64,000 bases of DNA from Flavobacteriaceae bacterium (GTDB lineage: Bacteria > Bacteroidota > Bacteroidia > Flavobacteriales > Flavobacteriaceae), in the NCBI GenBank assembly GCA_022428005.1, contig JAKMDI010000002.1:62001-126000 (forward strand), given 5' to 3'. Position 1 is the first letter of the stretch; each line of letters begins with the position of its first letter. Positions 3,996-64,000 of the stretch are shown here, in pieces. The notes under the pieces were generated by a model. The model was not told the DNA's origin. It searched no databases and saw only the letters and a list, made by a program, of their open reading frames with translations. The position numbers were made by a program, and so were the translations under genes.

Positions 3996-6149
3996 ATGGG
4001 GTATCTCCCAAATAAAACACTCGAAGACTTAGAGTTTTTTGAAGTCACAAAACAGATTGCTGACTTTGCCATTACCCCCTTGGGAAAATCAGCTTGTTTG
4101 GAGATGACTCCACTACCCGACTCCAAAGCAGCCTTAGATGCACTACACGGAGTGTCAGAATACCGCGCCTCCTTTGATAATGACAACAGGATTCCAAATC
4201 ATGGATTTGAGGATCTTTCTCCTGCCATCAAGTTGCTAAAAATTGAGAACAGTGTGTTGGAGATCAATTCCTTTAGGAATATTGCAGCGGCAACCGAGAC
4301 GGTCAACACACTATTGAAGTTTTTAAAGAAGTTCAAAAATTACTACCCAACTGTAAATCAGTTCAGTAGTCATCTTGAGGTAAACAATGAAATTAAGAAA
4401 GAAGTCGATGGGGTGATTGATCGGTTTGGAGAGGTTCGCGACAATGCCTCCGAACAACTCTATGCCCTCAGAAAGCAGATTCAATTCCTAAAAGGAAAAA
4501 TTGCCCAAAGTTTTAATAAGGCACTATCCCATTACAACAATTTAGATTATCTGGACGACATTCGAGAATCGGTTGTTGAAAACAAACGTGTATTGGCGGT
4601 CAAGTCGATGTACCGTAGAAAAGTAAAAGGAGGTATAATGGGCAGCTCCAAGACCGGCAGCATTGTTTTTATAGAACCCGAGGCTACCCTACAATATTCT
4701 CGTGAGCTACAAAACCTCCTTTTCGAAGAAACGGAAGAAGTCAAGAGGATTCTCAGTGAATTAACTGATTTTTTGCGCCCTATGCGGTATCAAATCAAGT
4801 CCTACCAAAGCTATCTACTTCACTTGGATACCCTTTATGCTCGTGCGCGTCACGCCGCAGTGATCGATGCCCTTCTTCCTATTTTGTCCGACCAGCAAGA
4901 GCTGGAGTTTAAAAATGCCTTTCACCCTCTTCTCCTGCGTGCCCATCAGTTGGAAAATAAAAAAACCTTCCCCCAAGATATTCAGCTGAGTCCAAAGAGC
5001 AGAATTGTAGTGATATCTGGGCCCAATGCCGGTGGAAAAAGTATCACGCTAAAAACCGTGGGCCTATTGCAATTGATGCTCCAAAGTGGCATATTGATCC
5101 CCGTACACGAAAAAAGTAGGTTTTGCTGGTTTGACAGTATATTGACCGATATCGGAGACAATCAGTCCATAGAAAATCACTTGAGCACTTATTCTTACCG
5201 GCTTAAAAACATGAAAGGGTTTCTGAAAAAATGCGATGATAAAACCCTCTTTTTGATTGATGAGTTTGGAACAGGCTCAGACCCTGAACTTGGTGGAGCC
5301 TTGGCCGAGGTGATCTTGGAAGACTTCTATGAACGCAAATCATTTGGCCTGATCACCACCCATTATGCCAATTTGAAGCTCTTGGCCGATGAACAAGCTG
5401 CCATGGTCAATGCCAATATGCAATTCAATGACAAAACCTTGGAGCCTGTATTTAAATTGGTTTTGGGTGAGGCAGGGAGCTCTTTCACCTTTGAAGTGGC
5501 CCAAAAAAACGGAATTCCCTTTAGCTTGATCAACCGCGCTAAAAAGAAAATCGAACGGGGTAAAGTGCGGTTCGATGCAACCATTGCAAAACTCCAAAAA
5601 CAAAGGCATCAAATGGCCAAGACCGGGAAATCTCTTCAAGAAAAAGAAAGTAAATACAAAGACGAATCAGAACGCTTGGAATCCCTAAATATAAAGCTAA
5701 AGACCAAGCTGGTAAGCTATCAAGAATTGTTTGATCACAACCAGCGGATGATTGTTTTGGGGAACAAACTGAATGATGTGGCAGAGCGATATTTTCAAAA
5801 CAATAAAAAACGCCCTATGATCGCCGAAATACTGCGCCTGGTAGAAACCGAAAACTCCAAAAGAAAAAGAAAGTCGGCTGCTCAGTCCAAAAAGGCCAAG
5901 GCCGTTAAAAAAACAGTTGAAAAGGAAGTAGAAGAAAAATTGGTGACCCTTAGGAAGGAAAAAAAGAAAAAGAAAAACGAAGCTGTTCAACCCAACCCCT
6001 TGGTCGTTTTAAAAGTAGGAGACAAAGTTCGGATGTTGGACGGGAAATCTGTAGGCAGTATCGACGCCATTGAAAAGAAAAAAGCCATTGTTAATTACGG
6101 TATTTTTACTACACAAGTCAATTTAGACCAACTGGAATTGGCAAAATAA
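3996..6149 (+). CDS. mutS2: MutS2 family ATPase/endonuclease-like protein without Smr domain
   Basis: 717 aa. A MutS core (lever and clamp helices, about 1-330) leads to the ABC ATPase with Walker A GPNAGGKS (342-349) and Walker B LIDEFGTGSDPE (D422/E423), then the signature region and a long helical segment. From about 620 a lysine-rich linker (RKRKSAA, KKKKK) leads to a small SH3-like KOW domain (LKVGDKVRMLDGKSVG). The C-terminal Smr nuclease domain of canonical MutS2 (usually about 780 aa) is absent. MutS2 is linked to recombination control and, in some bacteria, to rescue of collided ribosomes; without Smr, nicking activity is not expected. The stop overlaps the next start. Confidence 0.9.
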   Translation: MGYLPNKTLEDLEFFEVTKQIADFAITPLGKSACLEMTPLPDSKAALDALHGVSEYRASFDNDNRIPNHGFEDLSPAIKLLKIENSVLEINSFRNIAAATETVNTLLKFLKKFKNYYPTVNQFSSHLEVNNEIKKEVDGVIDRFGEVRDNASEQLYALRKQIQFLKGKIAQSFNKALSHYNNLDYLDDIRESVVENKRVLAVKSMYRRKVKGGIMGSSKTGSIVFIEPEATLQYSRELQNLLFEETEEVKRILSELTDFLRPMRYQIKSYQSYLLHLDTLYARARHAAVIDALLPILSDQQELEFKNAFHPLLLRAHQLENKKTFPQDIQLSPKSRIVVISGPNAGGKSITLKTVGLLQLMLQSGILIPVHEKSRFCWFDSILTDIGDNQSIENHLSTYSYRLKNMKGFLKKCDDKTLFLIDEFGTGSDPELGGALAEVILEDFYERKSFGLITTHYANLKLLADEQAAMVNANMQFNDKTLEPVFKLVLGEAGSSFTFEVAQKNGIPFSLINRAKKKIERGKVRFDATIAKLQKQRHQMAKTGKSLQEKESKYKDESERLESLNIKLKTKLVSYQELFDHNQRMIVLGNKLNDVAERYFQNNKKRPMIAEILRLVETENSKRKRKSAAQSKKAKAVKKTVEKEVEEKLVTLRKEKKKKKNEAVQPNPLVVLKVGDKVRMLDGKSVGSIDAIEKKKAIVNYGIFTTQVNLDQLELAK

Positions 6150-6538
6150 TGACGAATATTATTTTTTATGACGGCCTGTGCCCCTTTTGTCACTTTTGGG
6201 TTCAGTTCGTTATCAAAGTAGATCGAAAACAACAATTTTTATTCGCATCACTACAAGGAGCCACATCGGAAAACCTCCTTCCAGCACAGTTTCAGGAAGT
6301 CGATTCGGTAGTAATGTATGTGAACAAGAGAAAAATATACACCAAATCCAATGCCGTTTTTACAATCATTCGTGCCTTGGGTGGAGTCTGGAAGTTGCTA
6401 TTTGTCTTCCAGTTTTTACCAAAATCACTCCTTGATCTCCTTTACGACTTTGTTGCCAAGTACCGCTATATATTGTGGAAACCCATGGACCAATGTCCGC
6501 TTCCCGACCCCAAGGTAGCCGCTCGTTTTTTAGCGTAA
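6149..6538 (+). CDS. DCC-family thiol-disulfide oxidoreductase-like protein (DUF393)
   Basis: 129 aa. It opens with the DCC signature: YDGLCPFC, with D8, C11 and C14 near the N-terminus, as expected for DUF393. A central helical region and a C-terminal YRYILW stretch complete the fold. The family has a predicted thioredoxin-like redox role; partners are unknown. Its ATG overlaps the mutS2 stop (TAATG), so it is cotranscribed and probably translationally coupled with mutS2. The following 217 bases hold only a possible 35-codon ORF. Confidence 0.8.
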   Translation: MTNIIFYDGLCPFCHFWVQFVIKVDRKQQFLFASLQGATSENLLPAQFQEVDSVVMYVNKRKIYTKSNAVFTIIRALGGVWKLLFVFQFLPKSLLDLLYDFVAKYRYILWKPMDQCPLPDPKVAARFLA

Positions 6539-6651
6539 AATGTAACCATCATATCGTTTAGCACTATCCTATAAATCCCATGACAGGAAAGTCTACACCA
6601 ACGTATTTTATAAATTATTATTAAATTTAGTACTATATAACCCTGAATACT

Positions 6652-6759
6652 ATGAAGAACTACCTACATTCCTCTCATTCGTTTTATGCCTTTTTTTCCC
6701 CATTGGAAGGATACTCAATTAATAGTTTTCCTAAAAAACCAAAACCCCAAAGTCTATGA
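6652..6759 (+). CDS. Possible 35-aa leader ORF overlapping the DUF1801 start
   Basis: ATG 6652 opens 35 codons that end with TGA at 6757-6759, overlapping the next ATG (ATGA). The peptide (MKNYLHSSHSFYAFF...) has no recognised family. The coupling geometry is the only support; it may be chance. Confidence 0.2.
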   Translation: MKNYLHSSHSFYAFFSPLEGYSINSFPKKPKPQSL

Positions 6760-7211
6760 GATCCACCGCTGCCTCCCCAGAAGAATACATCGCACAGCTT
6801 CCCCAAGACAGAAAAGAAGTTTTTGTGCGATTGCGGAGCGTTATATTAAAGAATTTACCCGAGGGATTTTCAGAGGGTATTAATTATGGGATGATTGGCT
6901 ATTTTGTCCCGCACAGCCGCTATCCACAGGGCTATCATTGCAATCCAAAACTACCGCTCCCCTTTATGAGTCTGGCCTCCCAAAAAAATTCAATAAATGT
7001 TTATCACAGCGGCATTTACACAGATAAAAATCTATACAATTGGTGGGTAAAATCCTACACTAAACACGCAACAGCGAGGTTAGATATGGGAAAGAGTTGT
7101 ATTAGGTTTAAAAAAATGGATGCTATCCCTTTTGAACTTATTGGATCGCTTTGCAGGAAAATTTCCGTAAAGCAATGGATTACACTTTACGAGAGATGTC
7201 TTAAAAAATAG
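6756..7211 (+). CDS. DUF1801 (YdhG-like) domain protein
   Basis: 151 aa. The segment SPEEYIAQLPQDRKEV followed by LPEGFSEGINYGMIGY is typical of DUF1801/YdhG-like proteins, and the middle part PLPFMSLASQKNSINVYH fits the frataxin-like fold of the family. No catalytic residues are recognised and the function is unknown. The gene stands alone, convergent with the symporter gene 17 bases downstream. No -7 box was found in the 217-base gap before it. Confidence 0.7.
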   Translation: MRSTAASPEEYIAQLPQDRKEVFVRLRSVILKNLPEGFSEGINYGMIGYFVPHSRYPQGYHCNPKLPLPFMSLASQKNSINVYHSGIYTDKNLYNWWVKSYTKHATARLDMGKSCIRFKKMDAIPFELIGSLCRKISVKQWITLYERCLKK

Positions 7212-7228
7212 AGCGGGAATTAAAAACG

Positions 7229-8539
7229 CTAATCGTTTTTTTTGTAGTGATCATCCCATTTCTTTTCTTTAGGATTTTTTTTGAGTTTCCCAACACTTTT
7301 GGCCACCATCATGGACACGGCTGAATCTCCTGTTACGTTAACCACAGTTCGGCACATGTCCAAAGGCCGGTCTATGGCAAAAATCAATGCCAATCCTGCC
7401 TCAGGGATGCCTGCCTGCCCCAAAACAATTACCAACATCACCATACCTGCACCAGGGACTGCTGCAGCACCAATAGAGGCGAGTGTTGCGGTAAGGATGA
7501 TTCCCAACTGAGCTCCCAAGCTAAGGTCCATACCAAAAGCCTGTGCGATAAAAACAGCGGCCACAGCCTGGTAGAGGCTGGTGCCATCCATATTGATGGT
7601 TGCCCCTATGGGCAATACAAAACTGGCCACTTCCTCATCGACCCCAAGATGTTCCTCTACCCTTTCCATGGTAACGGGCAGTGTTGCCGCACTGGAGCTC
7701 GTTGAGAAAGCCAAAAGCTGAGCAGGGGCAATGCCTTGAAGGAACTTGCTGGGTTTGATTTTAACATAGAGTCGTAGCAAAAGTGAATACACCCCTATCA
7801 TCAGCGCCAGTCCAATCAATAGCGTAATGGCATACATTCCGAGTGCTCTAAACAAATCCAAACTTGGGGACTCAACTACCAGAGCCGCCAGCAGAGCAAA
7901 TACACCGTAGGGCGCTGCCATCATGATGAGGTCGATGAGTTTTAGAATGACTTCGTTAAATGCATCAAAAAAATCTTTGACTGGCTTTGCCTTCTCAGGA
8001 GGTATTAGTATGAGTCCAATACCAAAAAACAAAGCGAAAAAAATGACTTGGAGCATGTTACCGTTTTCGGTAGTGGCTTTAAAAATATTATCGGGAACCA
8101 AGTCCACGAGTGCTTGTAAAGGCCCTGCCTCTTTTTGTTTTTTAGCGACAGCTTGTTTTTCAGCCGCATCGCTACTATAAGTGGCTACCAGTTCCTCTCG
8201 GGTCTCTTCAGCGATAGAAGTTCCCGGTCGAAAAGTATTGACCATCAACAAGCCAATAGAAACTGCCAAAACGGTGGTAATAATATAAATTCCTATGGTC
8301 CTTCCCCCCATCAAGGAGAGCTTTGAGATGTCTTTGAGATCGGATACTCCTTTGATCAAAGACCCTAAAATCAAAGGCATGGCGATGAGCTTTAGGGCAT
8401 TGATAAATATAGTGCCAAAAGGCTTAATCCAGTCCGATACAAGCTGAACACCTCCTTCAAATTGAGTAAAAGCAATACCACAGAGCACCCCGAGTACCAT
8501 ACCCAGCATGATCCTCAAATGCAGTGGGGGCTTTTTCAT
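7229..8539 (-). CDS. Dicarboxylate/amino acid:cation symporter (DAACS family)
   Basis: 436 aa, the normal size for GltP/DctA-type carriers. It is a polytopic inner-membrane protein importing acidic amino acids or C4-dicarboxylates with sodium or protons. Family motifs: a serine-rich hairpin (FSTSSSAATLPVTME), the NMDGTSLYQ stretch of TM7, the second hairpin AAVPGAGMVMLV, and DMCRTVVNVTGDS in TM8. An extra charged loop (about 115-140, EETREEL and KKQKEAG) is an insertion often seen in Bacteroidota members. The substrate cannot be fixed from sequence. It follows aroC by three bases, so the two are probably one transcript although functionally unrelated. Confidence 0.9.
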   Translation of the reverse strand: MKKPPLHLRIMLGMVLGVLCGIAFTQFEGGVQLVSDWIKPFGTIFINALKLIAMPLILGSLIKGVSDLKDISKLSLMGGRTIGIYIITTVLAVSIGLLMVNTFRPGTSIAEETREELVATYSSDAAEKQAVAKKQKEAGPLQALVDLVPDNIFKATTENGNMLQVIFFALFFGIGLILIPPEKAKPVKDFFDAFNEVILKLIDLIMMAAPYGVFALLAALVVESPSLDLFRALGMYAITLLIGLALMIGVYSLLLRLYVKIKPSKFLQGIAPAQLLAFSTSSSAATLPVTMERVEEHLGVDEEVASFVLPIGATINMDGTSLYQAVAAVFIAQAFGMDLSLGAQLGIILTATLASIGAAAVPGAGMVMLVIVLGQAGIPEAGLALIFAIDRPLDMCRTVVNVTGDSAVSMMVAKSVGKLKKNPKEKKWDDHYKKND

Positions 8540-8542
8540 AAA

Positions 8543-9607
8543 TTATTTTTTGATGGTTCTGTTCAGCAGGGTAAAATCCGCCAAGACCAATGCAGCCATA
8601 GCCTCCACTATAGGAACTGCTCTGGGCACCACGCAGGGGTCGTGTCTTCCTTTGCCTTGCATGTCTACCTGTTCACCTTTGTTGTTGATTGTTTTTTGAG
8701 ACTGCATTATGGTAGCAACGGGTTTAAAAGCTACGTTAAAGTAAATGTCCATCCCGTTGGAAATTCCACCTTGGATCCCTCCAGCGTGATTGGTTTTTGT
8801 CGTACCGTCCGTATTGTAAAGATCGTTGTGATCACTTCCTCTTTTTTGTGCGCCTTCAAATCCACTACCATATTCAAAACCCTTTACAGCATTTATGGAA
8901 AGCATGGCCTTGCCCAACTCTGCGTGAAGCTTATCAAAAACTGGCTCACCCAATCCAATGGGTACATTTTGAATAACCCCAGTAATGACCCCGCCTACGG
9001 TATCTCCTTCCTTTCGTATTTTTTTTATGTAATCTTCCATTTCCGCTGCCTTTTCGGGGTCTGGGCAACGAACTGGATTTTGCTCTATAAAATCGAAATC
9101 TAAATTGTGGTAGGGCTTGTCCAGCTTTATGTCTCCCACAGAGGAAACAAAAGCAGTAAACTTAACATCGGGTAAAAACTGCTTTGCTATGGCCCCTGCG
9201 ACAACCCTACTTGCAGTTTCCCTGGCAGAACTCCTGCCTCCACCTCGATAATCTCTTACCCCGTATTTGTCGTCATAGACCTTGTCCGCATGAGAGGGGC
9301 GGTATTGATCCTTGATGTGGTCGTAGTCACGTGATTTATGATTGGTATTAAAAATGGCAAAACCGATGGGCACTCCAGTAGTTTTACCTTCAAAAATCCC
9401 TGAGAAAAACTGCACCTCATCGGGCTCTTTTCGTTGGGTTACAATTGCAGATTGCCCGGGCTTTCGCCGGTTTAAATCTTTTTGTATGGCTTGTAAATCC
9501 AACTCAATTCCAGAGGGACATCCATCGATGACACCGCCAATGGCAGCGCCGTGGGATTCCCCGAAAGTGGTCAATTGGAATACTTTTCCGAATGTGTTTC
9601 CTGACAT
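8543..9607 (-). CDS. aroC: Chorismate synthase
   Basis: 354 aa. It converts 5-enolpyruvylshikimate-3-phosphate to chorismate, the last shikimate-pathway step, using reduced FMN. Signature stretches are present: [20 protein letters not shown] near the N-terminus, [18 protein letters not shown] in the middle, and GSDHNDLYN later. Length and motifs match bacterial AroC. It is first in a minus-strand pair with the DAACS symporter. A TATATTTG box sits 14 nt before the ATG. Confidence 0.97.
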
Positions 9608-39383: not shown

Positions 39384-40088
39384 ATGAAAAATTTTATTTA
39401 TCTGCTGCTGATTGGAACTTTGACCTTACTTCCCAAAAATTCATTTGCACAAGTAGACCCCGAAGAAATGGGTGCTTGGTACATGTATATTTTTAATACC
39501 CGATTCAAAAATGACAGTCTCTGGGGAATCCAAGGTGATATTCAACACAGGAATTTTAATGTAATCGGCGACCTGCAACAGTTGCTCATTCGAGGTGGAA
39601 TCACCTATATGCCCAAAGAAAGTCCGTTAAAGTTAACATTTGGCTATGCTTACATCGGAAATGGAACCCCAGGCGACAGTAAGGAAACCTCAGCGGTAGA
39701 ACACCGATTCTATCAGGAGACTTCATTTCCAGTCAAGTTGGGTAAAAAATTATTTCTCAACAACCGATTTCGATATGAACTGAGGAATGTTGAAAATCAA
39801 GATTTTAGAACGCGATACCGCTACAGTTTATTCCTCAATGTGCCCCTAAACAATCAGATATTAGAGCCTAAGACCGTTTACCTGTCCATGTACAATGAAG
39901 TATTTATCAACGGTCAAAGAAAGATAGGAGATGGAAAAACAGTTCCATTTTTTGATAGAAACCGTTTATATGGGGCTTTGGGATACATCTTCCGAAAAGG
40001 CTTGAAAATGCAATTTGGAATGATGCGACAAACCTCCAATAGCTTCGGAAAGAACCAATTACAGTTAAGTTTGCACCAAACATTCTAA
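39384..40088 (+). CDS. DUF2490 outer-membrane protein
   Basis: 234 aa. A cleavable signal peptide (ends NSFAQ, about residue 23) and alternating beta strands with a terminal F (LSLHQTF) point to a small outer-membrane barrel. The stretches WYMYIFNTRFKNDSLWGIQG and RYRYSLFLNVPLNN match DUF2490. Function is unknown; such proteins are proposed porin-like. Its own -7 box sits just before the start. No operon partner: the next gene is 92 bases on. Confidence 0.75.
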   Translation: MKNFIYLLLIGTLTLLPKNSFAQVDPEEMGAWYMYIFNTRFKNDSLWGIQGDIQHRNFNVIGDLQQLLIRGGITYMPKESPLKLTFGYAYIGNGTPGDSKETSAVEHRFYQETSFPVKLGKKLFLNNRFRYELRNVENQDFRTRYRYSLFLNVPLNNQILEPKTVYLSMYNEVFINGQRKIGDGKTVPFFDRNRLYGALGYIFRKGLKMQFGMMRQTSNSFGKNQLQLSLHQTF

Positions 40089-40180: not shown

Positions 40181-40918
40181 ATGAAAGGAAAGTTCTATTT
40201 TTTCTACTTGTTTGCTTTTGTAATAGCCGTTTTATTTGTCAGTTGTACTCCAAACGATTCTGAAGATCAAGTAGATTCAACTCAAATGATCCAAGACGAA
40301 AACGGCGATTCAGGTGACGTTTCTCAGGAAGGCACAGAGGGAGATAATACCGATCAGACCACCCAAGACAACAACGGTAATTCAGACAATACTAGCCAGG
40401 AAGGCACTGAGGGGGGAAATACTGATGAAACCACCCAAGACAACAATGGCAATACAGATGGCGTTAACCAGGGAGAAACCGAAGTGGTAAATACCGATAT
40501 TGCTCCGGACTTTACCTTAACCGAATTGGATGGAAAACAAATTAAATTTTCTGATTATGAAGGAAAGGTATTGGTCATGTTCTTCTTTGGTAATTCCTGT
40601 CCCTCTTGTAAAACCGTTGCAACCCAAATTCAATCCAAACTGGCAAATAAGTTTGAGTCCAATGAAGCCTTTGCCATCGTTGGATTAGACCAGTGGAATG
40701 GCAACGCCTCTTCTGTAAGAAACTTCAAATCGGTTACTGGAGTCCAGTTTCCATTCCTTTTGGGTGCCTCATCGACAGCATCGGCCTACAAAACTACCTA
40801 CGACAGACTACTGGTAGTTGACAAAAAAGGAGCCATCCAATTTAGAGGGAAGAGAAATGCAACTAACGACCTCGACGACGTGGTCACAATAACGGCTACC
40901 TACCTTGAAAAACAATAA
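40181..40918 (+). CDS. Redoxin-domain lipoprotein with repeated acidic linker
   Basis: 245 aa. Lipobox FVSC (about Cys 22). Residues 34-107 are three near-identical 24-26-residue units rich in N, D, T, Q and G (e.g. TTQDNNGNSDNTSQEGTEGG), a flexible stalk. Residues about 108-245 are a TlpA/AhpC-type thioredoxin domain: APDFTLTELDGKQIKFSDYEG, active site NSCPSCK with C140 and C143. It is probably an outer-membrane-anchored disulfide oxidoreductase held away from the membrane. The 3' end overlaps the next gene by 14 bases, so they form an operon, and the broken DUF6029-like gene is third. Confidence 0.85.
   Translation: MKGKFYFFYLFAFVIAVLFVSCTPNDSEDQVDSTQMIQDENGDSGDVSQEGTEGDNTDQTTQDNNGNSDNTSQEGTEGGNTDETTQDNNGNTDGVNQGETEVVNTDIAPDFTLTELDGKQIKFSDYEGKVLVMFFFGNSCPSCKTVATQIQSKLANKFESNEAFAIVGLDQWNGNASSVRNFKSVTGVQFPFLLGASSTASAYKTTYDRLLVVDKKGAIQFRGKRNATNDLDDVVTITATYLEKQ
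40280..40501 (+). repeat. Three tandem units encoding an acidic Asn/Asp/Thr stalk
   Basis: Three successive coding units at 40280-40357, 40358-40429 and 40430-40501 (26, 24 and 24 codons) share a CCACCCAAGACAACAA-type core and GAAGGCACTGAGG-type core. They look like recent in-frame duplication, and the copy number may vary between strains. Confidence 0.75.
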
Positions 40919-41399
40919 ATTAGTTTTTTACTTCTGGATAAGTATCCTTTTTGTTGCAACTGCATCCGCACAAAAAATTAGGGATTTTCATCTCGAAGAT
41001 ATCCAAGGGGAGATTAAAAGTTTTGCTGAGATCAAAGGGGAACAGCTCACCATTATCGACTTTTGGGCATCCTGGTGCAAACCTTGCTTAAAGGCAATTC
41101 CTGAATTGGATAAGTTGTTCAAAAAATACCACAGTCAGGGAGTTGAAATAATTGGTATCAGCACCGACGGGCCCAGAAGTATCTCAAATGTAGCACCATT
41201 AGTAAGGACCATGGCCATTTCTTATCCAGTACTTACAGACATAGACAACGCTATAGTGAATGAAATGGAAGTTGCTCAAATACCCACTGTCATAATAATA
41301 AATAGGGACGGTGAGATTGCCTATCGCCACGAGGGATACAGTAAAAGAGACGAAATAGAAATTGAAGGTCAGATCACAACTTTACTTTCCAAACCTTAG
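40905..41399 (+). CDS. TlpA-family periplasmic disulfide reductase
   Basis: 164 aa. A signal peptide (about 1-22, ends ASAQ) precedes a single thioredoxin domain with active site FWASWCKPC (C58/C61) and a cis-proline region AQIPTVIIINRDG. The start is TTG at 40905, overlapping the upstream gene by 14 bases; the codons after it give a standard signal peptide. Together with the redoxin lipoprotein it forms a two-step thiol relay, presumably serving the third, outer-membrane gene product. Its TAG stop lies next to the ATG of the DUF6029-like gene. Confidence 0.88.
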   Translation: MKNNKLVFYFWISILFVATASAQKIRDFHLEDIQGEIKSFAEIKGEQLTIIDFWASWCKPCLKAIPELDKLFKKYHSQGVEIIGISTDGPRSISNVAPLVRTMAISYPVLTDIDNAIVNEMEVAQIPTVIIINRDGEIAYRHEGYSKRDEIEIEGQITTLLSKP

Positions 41400-42846
41400 A
41401 TGGCACAATTTTTCATCGTTGTTTTCATTGTTTTTTGTTCTACAGCGCAGGCACAATTTTCCGCGAGAAACTTGATGGAAAACCAGTACGGTAAATTACC
41501 AGATACTGACCAAAGTAACTTCAGCTCATCATACAACAAACTAATCGTTAATTATCGCTTTGATGATTTAAAAGCTACCTCTGGAGTACAAGCCTTTCAA
41601 ACATCTTTTACCGACCGGAATTAGATCGACCCCTCCTAGTTGGGTGTCAATTACAAAAAAAAATCATTAGAAATAAACTTGGGTAATTTTTACAAAACTC
41701 TGGGGAGGGGCCTGTTGCTGCGTTCCTATGAAGTCCAAGGGGGGCTATTAGAGGACCAGGGGTTCCGGACAAAGCACTATTTCTATCGCGATATTTTAGG
41801 CGCTTCAGCAAGCATAAAATTAGGAAAGGTCAATTTGACCGGACTTTGGGGACATCCCCTGAGCAATGTGTATCCTCCCAATCAACCTTTTGAAAACAAA
41901 CGCTCCGATGAAATTGCAGCACTAAATGTAGAATACAGACTGTTCAAACAAAAACTTGCCCTTACTGGCCTTAACGTTAAAAACAAATTTGAAAATTCCA
42001 ATTATGGAGCCATCAACATATCCGGAAGAATTTTACCTTCGCTCTCCTATTTTACCGCCTATGCCCAATTCCTGGGGGGATTCTAAACAAAAGAATAAAA
42101 AAATAACAGCGTTTTACGGGAATTTAAATTATTCAATGAATAAAATTGGGTTCAGCTTGGAGTGGAAAAATTATCAAAATTTTTTAATCGCCTCTGGAAT
42201 CAACGAGCCTCCTGCATTGGTGCGTGAACATTCTTATTTAGTATTAAACAGAAGTACAAACGTTCTCTTACCCGACAATGAATCAGGTGTTCAATTTGAG
42301 TTTTTCTAACAATTAAACAACGATAATTTAATTACCTTGAATTATACCCAAGCCAACAATGACTTATTTAAAACCTATAAATATAGTGAGTGGTTCGCCG
42401 AGTGGGCCACTGTGATTTTTAATGATTCCGATTTAAAAATATTTATCGACCAAGCTGAAGATCCCCTGAAAAATCAATCCCAACGGTTTTCAACAGGATT
42501 TTTATTGGACCACAAGCTGGTCAACAGGCGTGGGCTGGCCTTGGAGTTTAACTATCAAGTTTTTCAACGCGAAGGCTTATCGAATCAAAACTATCTTGGA
42601 AGAATAACCTGGAGGTTAAAGTCCGAGCTCTACCTGAACCTACATTACGAATGGAGCACCGATAGATTTCTTACCAGCACCCACCGAGAATGGTTGGGCA
42701 GTAACATCAACTACAAGATTAACAACCAACATCAACTACTGCTATTCCTTGGACAACGCAGAGGGGGGCCAGCATGTAATGCAGGAATATGTTATGAAAC
42801 ACTTGATTTTAGCGAGATTGAAGTCAGGTGGTTAGCAAGATTGTAA
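41400..42846 (+). pseudogene. Broken DUF6029-like outer-membrane protein gene
   Basis: The parts of one protein are spread over two frames. It begins with a signal peptide (FCSTAQAQFSARNLMENQYG) at ATG 41400. Frame one has in-frame TAG stops at 41622-41624 and 41637-41639, between FTDRN and LGVNYKKK, but continues open to a G6 run at 42074-42079. Removing one G there links YAQFLG to DSKQKNKKITAFYG in the second frame. That frame has one TAA at 42307-42309 and ends after LFLGQRRGGPACNAGICYE, the DUF6029 C-terminal hallmark. Restored length is about 480 aa. Four lesions, three of them substitutions, suggest real decay. The family is probably an outer-membrane barrel functioning with the two upstream thioredoxin-fold proteins. 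Confidence 0.85.
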
Positions 42847-42885: not shown

Positions 42886-44565
<1,680 letters not shown>

Positions 44566-63076: not shown

Positions 63077-63538
63077 GTGCAAAAGCGAATCAACATACAA
63101 AACAAAAAGGCGCGGTTTGAATACGAGTTTCTCGATCAATTCACCGCAGGGATTGTATTGACGGGTACGGAAATCAAGTCGATCCGCAACAGCAAGGCCT
63201 CCATTGCTGAAAGTTTTTGTGAATTCAATGAAAACGGAGAGCTTTTTGCCGTAAACATGTACATTGAAGAATACGCTTTTGGCACCCGTTTTAACCACCG
63301 CCCCAGAGGCAGCAGAAAGCTTTTGCTCAACAGAAGAGAACTGAATAAACTTCACAAACAAGTGAAAAACTCAGGTCTCACCATCGTACCCCTCAAGCTT
63401 TTTATCAACGATAAGGGTTTTGCCAAAATGTCCATCGCATTGGCACGTGGAAAAAAACTTTATGACAAAAGGGATACCCTTAAAGACCGCGACAATCAGA
63501 GAAATTTAGATCGGGTAAAGAAAAGTTTTAATCAGTAG
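63077..63538 (+). CDS. smpB: SsrA-binding protein
   Basis: 153 aa, normal length. It binds tmRNA in ribosome rescue. FEYEFLDQFTAGIVLTGTEIKSIR, then EEYAFGTRFNHRPRGSRKLLLNR, and the C-terminal basic tail LARGKKLYDKRDTLKDRD are family landmarks. The start is GTG at 63077, directly after the -7 box. It follows clpB by 17 bases but its own promoter sits inside that gap. The tmRNA gene is not in the window. Confidence 0.95.
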   Translation: MQKRINIQNKKARFEYEFLDQFTAGIVLTGTEIKSIRNSKASIAESFCEFNENGELFAVNMYIEEYAFGTRFNHRPRGSRKLLLNRRELNKLHKQVKNSGLTIVPLKLFINDKGFAKMSIALARGKKLYDKRDTLKDRDNQRNLDRVKKSFNQ

Positions 63539-63629
63539 TTAATTTATTGTTTTGTAAATCAATTCCAAATCCTAAACTTATTTTGGCATGGAATTTGAAA
63601 CTTTATAAATACCCTAATCTTACTTTTCC

Positions 63630-64000
63630 ATGAAAAAAAAACTGATCTATTCCGTTCCCGCTATCTTATTTTTCTATTACCCCTCCTTTTGGGCTGTCAA
63701 AACAACGACGACAACGTCTTTGATCAAGAATTCTTAATCACTGATGCTGCCTTTCAAAATTTCTCGGAAAACTATAATTATCAAGAAGGTTTAATCCCTG
63801 CAGACAGCTACAAAATTGCCGTTAATTTACTGTCGGACAACACTTATGCAACACGGTATGGAATCAATCCAGAACAACAGAATAAAATATCAGGTATTTC
63901 AATAAAGACCCTTCTTGACTTAAAAGATTACGCCTAAGCGGGGGAGAACATTAACAAACTATTTTTAGTTCAAAAAAATTATCATGAGTTGTATCAAACC
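63630..64000 (+). pseudogene. Frameshifted, stop-containing lipoprotein gene (truncated by window edge)
   Basis: From ATG 63630 the frame breaks after a 9-base A run (63633-63641). Adding one A would give MKKKTDLFRSRYLIFLLPLL leading straight into LLGCQNNDDNVFD, a perfect lipoprotein signal and lipobox, in the frame that continues as FLITDAAFQNFSENYNYQ. That frame has a TAA at 63935-63937 after LLDLKDYA but is open again to the window edge (AGENINKLFLVQKNYHELYQ). So one homopolymer indel and one in-frame stop separate a plausible single lipoprotein. Family unknown. Confidence 0.7.

Follow-up and report, generated by a model that had tools for sequence, protein, structure and literature searches.

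In the 64,000-nt stretch of Flavobacteriaceae DNA analyzed here (the window, always meaning the whole stretch), two redox genes are followed by a DUF6029-type gene for a predicted outer-membrane barrel, the reading of which is interrupted at four points (Table 1). The locus raises the question of whether this gene is truly dead and, if so, how recently it was lost and whether the operon is an old possession of the lineage. We consider it highly likely that the broken gene is a true pseudogene of recent origin, belonging to an acquired three-gene cassette whose redox partners remain open. A pseudogene is in itself ordinary; the interest of this one lies in catching a single member of a cassette, probably an acquired one, in decay while its partners are still open.

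Table 1. Features of the cassette, its lesions and its flanks in the window
Feature	Position	Strand	Basis or remark
DUF2490 gene, flanking the cassette on the left	39384..40088	+	Neighbour of the right-flank ABC ATPase gene in 14 of the genus relatives
Redoxin/AhpC-TSA gene, intact, CPSC motif	40181..40918	+	Pfam AhpC-TSA, 5.5e-15; 57% identity (118 residues) with the first gene of the G188 cassette
TlpA/ResA-like thioredoxin gene, intact, CKPC motif	40905..41399	+	Pfam AhpC-TSA, 4.8e-22, and Thioredoxin_8, 6.8e-18; 44% to G188
Broken DUF6029-type gene, predicted outer-membrane barrel (pseudogene)	41400..42846	+	Frames, Pfam, homologues
In-frame TAG	41622..41624	+	Column is Tyr in 21/21 aligned intact homologues
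In-frame TAG	41637..41639	+	Column is Gln in 21/21 aligned intact homologues
G6 run, where the homologous reading changes frame	42074..42079	+	Frames and G188 alignment
In-frame TAA of the downstream frame	42307..42309	+	Frame and G188 alignment
Codons of the conserved C-x4-C pair (CNAGIC)	42775..42792	+	Kept, downstream of the lesions
ABC ATPase gene, right flank of the cassette	42886..44508	-	Profile families: two ABC_tran stretches and ABC_tran_Xtn

Frames and lesions of the DUF6029-type gene

The barrel gene starts at an ATG that directly follows the TAG stop of the TlpA-like gene. From there, the first frame runs past both TAG codons to a TAA at 42084 to 42086, and the downstream frame contains a single TAA before the closing stop that ends the gene. 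Taken in sequence, both frames align with a single intact 488-aa homologue in G188, a genome of the same family and another genus: in a tblastn search against a 16-kb subject from that genome, the first piece matched with 42% identity over 220 residues (E value, 1.5e-53) and the second with 47% over 247 residues (4.8e-72), well beyond what chance would give. The four lesions lie where the initial annotation of this DNA had placed them. Its assignment of the gene to DUF6029 also holds, on the evidence of the Pfam match of one piece and of intact homologues that score over the cut-off. Two of the four barrel pieces matched the DUF6029 profile, one at 27.7 bits (curated cut-off, 27) and one, at 21.4 bits, under it, and the other two gave no match. 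The broken copy, of about 480 codons, is a short and divergent gene of this family (PF19494). An outer-membrane beta-barrel fold is hinted at by the signal-like start and the C-terminal aromatic residue of the homologues, features that are suggestive only.

The two redox genes upstream have open frames in which the CxxC motifs are retained, in agreement with their earlier description as intact. The redoxin/AhpC-TSA protein has a predicted lipoprotein-like start, as judged from its translation. The linker of its gene holds about two copies of a 72-base tandem repeat (40325 to 40498), and its homologue in G188 lacks 56 residues by comparison in total length. The match of the TlpA-like protein to the ResA model is below the cut-off of that model.

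Artefact or continued use

The window genome is a probably metagenomic assembly of 1.72 Mb in 23 contigs, 82% complete, and such fragmentation would suit a sequencing, assembly or strain-mixing artefact behind which the real barrel gene is whole. One lesion does lie in a G6 run, but the other three are base changes, for which homopolymer error is, as had been argued before, a poor explanation. The two TAG codons fall in one short stretch, within which the intervening residues depart from the family as well; their spacing of 15 bases amounts to mild clustering, given that three positions placed at random were no more than five codons apart in 6.7% of simulations. Against an artefact, the two operon neighbours are open, and a coarse codon-likelihood decode of the 64 kb flagged no other gene as broken in its middle, two stops near the end of the window aside. 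The decode may miss lesions near gene ends, and it called 6145 to 7231 noncoding despite the open reading frames (ORFs) there. Its stops at 8543, 9614, 24734, 54975, 57300 and 57387 coincide with the ends of ordinary ORFs or lie just outside their starts; near the end of the window it placed stops at 63536 (an ORF end), 63596 and 63935. The last two fall in a stretch with a coding-like signal (63539 to 64000) beyond the ORF at 63077 to 63538. Coarse as it is, the decode speaks against a general assembly error, and we regard an artefact at the barrel gene as unlikely.

The barrel gene could also still be in use, if readthrough or recoding dealt with its stops and the frame shifted at the G6 run in a programmed or phase-variable manner. 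Residues beyond the lesions are indeed well conserved, but continued expression would require the bypass of two TAG codons, one TAA and one frameshift, none of which is needed by any of the 26 matching homologues described below. Recoding was rejected, as TAG is a normal stop here: of the 46 ORFs regarded as genes, 10 end in TAG, the adjoining TlpA-like gene included. Continued use is therefore extremely improbable.

Age of the loss

We used invariant alignment columns and branch lengths instead of dN/dS, the nearest homologues being only about 44% identical in protein sequence; at that level of identity, synonymous sites are expected to be saturated. Where the 21 other aligned homologues show no variation at all, the window barrel keeps 78 of 89 residues, and two of the 11 lost are the stops. 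The same test gave 25 of 30 for the intact TlpA-like neighbour and 17 of 20 for the redoxin, and the most divergent intact barrel homologue (L152) keeps 78 of 90. In the protein trees, the end branches of the window proteins measured 1.20 for the barrel, 1.77 for TlpA and 1.24 for the redoxin, with an uncertain placement of such long rows. Taken together, the columns and the branches indicate that, at the protein level, the broken barrel has not changed more than the two open genes beside it. Since otherwise invariant residues are kept as well as by intact neighbours, the loss looks recent, as the initial annotation had held.

A rough Poisson estimate combining the three nonsense changes with the changes at invariant columns placed the neutral age at 0.018 to 0.046 substitutions per base (the best values obtained with three assumed levels of ordinary divergence); the 95% ranges together span 0.005 to 0.077. 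By this rough estimate, "recent" means some 2 to 5% neutral change per base and not a strain-level event; the genome collection holds one genome per species. Relative to the changes at invariant columns, the number of nonsense changes is a little high, a weak signal with three events.

Homologues of the cassette genes

With the second barrel piece as the query, a search of 395 genomes of the order returned two carriers, counting the window's own genome; the other was G188, in which redoxin, TlpA and barrel genes stand in the same order as in the window and are all open. The redoxin and TlpA-like proteins are 57% and 44% identical between the two genomes, next to 42% and 47% for the first and second barrel pieces. 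G583, a second genome among the 199 of the G188 genus, likewise has all three genes, open and in the same order. The barrel tree groups the window with G188 and G583 (support, 98/90), as does the redoxin tree (97/93) and, less firmly, the TlpA tree (90/93).

A search with the intact G188 barrel found matches in 27 genomes out of 395 from the phylum, at a threshold of 1e-10. None of the other 26 has a stop inside the match, which leaves the window's as the sole broken copy in that search. The gene order is TlpA-barrel-redoxin in 19 of the 26 (18 of family f38 and one of f44) and redoxin-TlpA-barrel in G188; the remaining six encode more distant DUF6029 proteins with no redoxin match nearby. In three g76 genomes, one stop is listed inside a TlpA-like match (G097:C1:113539-114012, G153:C34:67616-68095 and G304:C4:23064-23525).

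Within the genus of the window genome, the last barrel piece matched none of the 21 other genomes, and the TlpA protein found distant thioredoxins only (best E value, 3.3e-14; 31% identity). A scan of genome contigs with the TlpA protein gave two distant loci. No relative of the last barrel piece was detected among viral contigs. A canonical DUF6029 gene does occur on a 10-kb contig of one genus relative (L016, also L164; G013:C25:1-10216), with no match in the 20 others; it possibly reflects contamination, for which that genome is listed at 5%, or a separate gain.

Origin of the cassette

The cassette lies between a DUF2490 gene and an ABC ATPase gene, which we take to be of the ABC-F type. 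The latter was found in 19 of the 21 genus relatives, the other two having no match at the threshold. In 14 of the 19, the end of the ABC-F gene and DUF2490 are 15 to 147 bases apart, measured between aligned ends, with nothing in between; in three, DUF2490 is missing from the junction and so is the cassette; and two junctions are cut by contig ends. The cassette is therefore absent from the site in all 17 readable junctions. Among the empty sites are those of L101 and L103, the deepest branches of the midpoint-rooted ABC-F tree, in which the window genome is nested among empty ones, its own fork having moderate support (81/82). At one junction without DUF2490 (L091; G008:C50), a short stretch resembling the C-terminal end of that protein remains, which suggests a deletion of the gene there.

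The initial annotation can be read as picturing an old operon of the lineage that lost one gene, and on this point the 17 empty junctions lead elsewhere. Given the empty sites in the relatives, gain of the 2.7-kb cassette in the window lineage is the simplest history: the redoxin-TlpA-barrel operon was probably not inherited from the ancestors of the genus and is most readily seen as an acquired cassette with a decaying barrel gene. Its ends carry no convincing flanking repeat, and no mobility family was recognized in the seven neighbouring genes scanned.

The contrary history is that the operon was ancestral to the genus and was lost in all others sampled, the window genome representing the last stage of the loss. 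Third-position GC content (GC3) and codon usage of the cassette fall within the host range and give no sign of transfer, and its closest kin are found in the same family, as descent within the lineage would have it. That history must nevertheless account for the absence of the cassette from every readable relative, including the deepest midpoint-rooted branches, for a tight DUF2490/ABC-F junction in 14 of the 17 empty relatives, and for the rarity of carriers (two among the 199 genomes of G188's genus and two among 395 in the order, the window's included). No cassette remnants were seen in the 17 genus junctions, in an inspection not aimed at short remnants, and separate losses in the relatives keep, strictly speaking, a small share of the probability. 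We judge an ancestral operon quite unlikely; as the barrel gene would be a pseudogene under that history too, the pseudogene claim is untouched by it, and the odds attached to the two readings overlap.

Under the preferred reading, a cassette encoding a redoxin-like protein, a TlpA-like thioredoxin and a DUF6029-type barrel would have entered the DUF2490/ABC-F junction in the window lineage. We infer that the barrel gene lost its function after this entry and gathered the three nonsense changes and the frameshift, while the two redox genes stayed open. In relatives in which the system works, the barrel would most likely partner the co-encoded thioredoxin at the outer membrane or be its client, as gene order and an invariant cysteine pair suggest; in the window genome, that outer-membrane step would be gone.

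A possible link of DUF6029 barrels to thiol-redox chemistry

In 39 of 43 distinct loci, the DUF6029 gene is directly preceded by a TlpA-like gene, counted as such when it lies on the same strand and at most 111 bases before the start of the match or ORF. The count comprises 14 of 16 loci in one set (L001 to L016) and 25 of 27 in another (L083 and L133 to L158); L159 to L163 are the same genes as five of the first set and were counted once. At L001 (the same as L160), for example, the TlpA-like match ends 29 bases upstream of the DUF6029 gene. As for the four other loci, one ORF intervenes at L153 and L156, no match was found within 1.5 kb at L011, and L016 starts at a contig end. All 43 intact DUF6029 proteins carry a C-x4-C pair about 20 residues from the C terminus (CNAGIC, CTSGIC, CVGGVC and similar), and the pair is present in the last barrel piece of the window as well. 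This pair is a feature found in the present analysis and not part of the published DUF6029 definition. From the usual layout of barrels, it probably lies in the last surface loop. No solved structure matched the family in a sequence-based profile search of the PDB (best E value, 0.95).

The adjoining TlpA-like genes and the universal C-x4-C pair suggest that DUF6029 barrels are linked to thiol-redox chemistry. We infer from these sequence patterns that the TlpA-like protein may handle the pair, perhaps during barrel assembly. More tentatively, and with somewhat less than even confidence, we propose that a conserved, exported module for thiol-redox chemistry in the phylum (Bacteroidota) could have DUF6029 barrels as its outer-membrane end, with a dedicated TlpA-like thioredoxin that forms or reduces the C-x4-C pair. 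If so, the window would display such a module after loss of its barrel, and the intact redox proteins may serve another client. DUF6029 is a family of unknown function, and its near-constant pairing with a TlpA-like thioredoxin, together with the invariant cysteine pair, makes a specific function testable.

Comparison with known systems

The window locus resembles DUF6029 loci (PF19494) at large in its C-terminal C-x4-C pair and in the TlpA-like gene just upstream, and it differs in that its copy is broken and shorter. Intact relatives of the window copy clearly belong to the family (G188, 75.7 bits; G583, 82.1 bits; cut-off, 27), in a divergent subfamily: the four intact members scanned score 51 to 82 bits, versus 206 to 217 bits for two more canonical proteins, and the canonical DUF6029 proteins of L001 to L016 stand higher still, at 411 to 698 bits.

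Our literature search found a single paper naming DUF6029 (PMC9603273), none naming PF19494, and none on a gene cluster of thioredoxin and outer membrane beta-barrel in Bacteroidota. That paper reported that many of 28 Wzi-barrel hits were similar to DUF6029 by HHpred, and it suggested a possible role in polysaccharide secretion (PMC9603273). Compared with such Wzi-like export barrels, the DUF6029 genes described above usually have thioredoxin-like proteins as their neighbours; the polysaccharide export and thiol-redox ideas do not exclude each other.

The decay of one probably acquired gene also has a parallel. In a study of gene loss, acquired genes with distant homologues were found to arise often and to persist less than ORFans (PMC2275313). 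That study concerned Escherichia coli and Shigella, whereas in the present case it is one gene of a three-gene cassette that decays.
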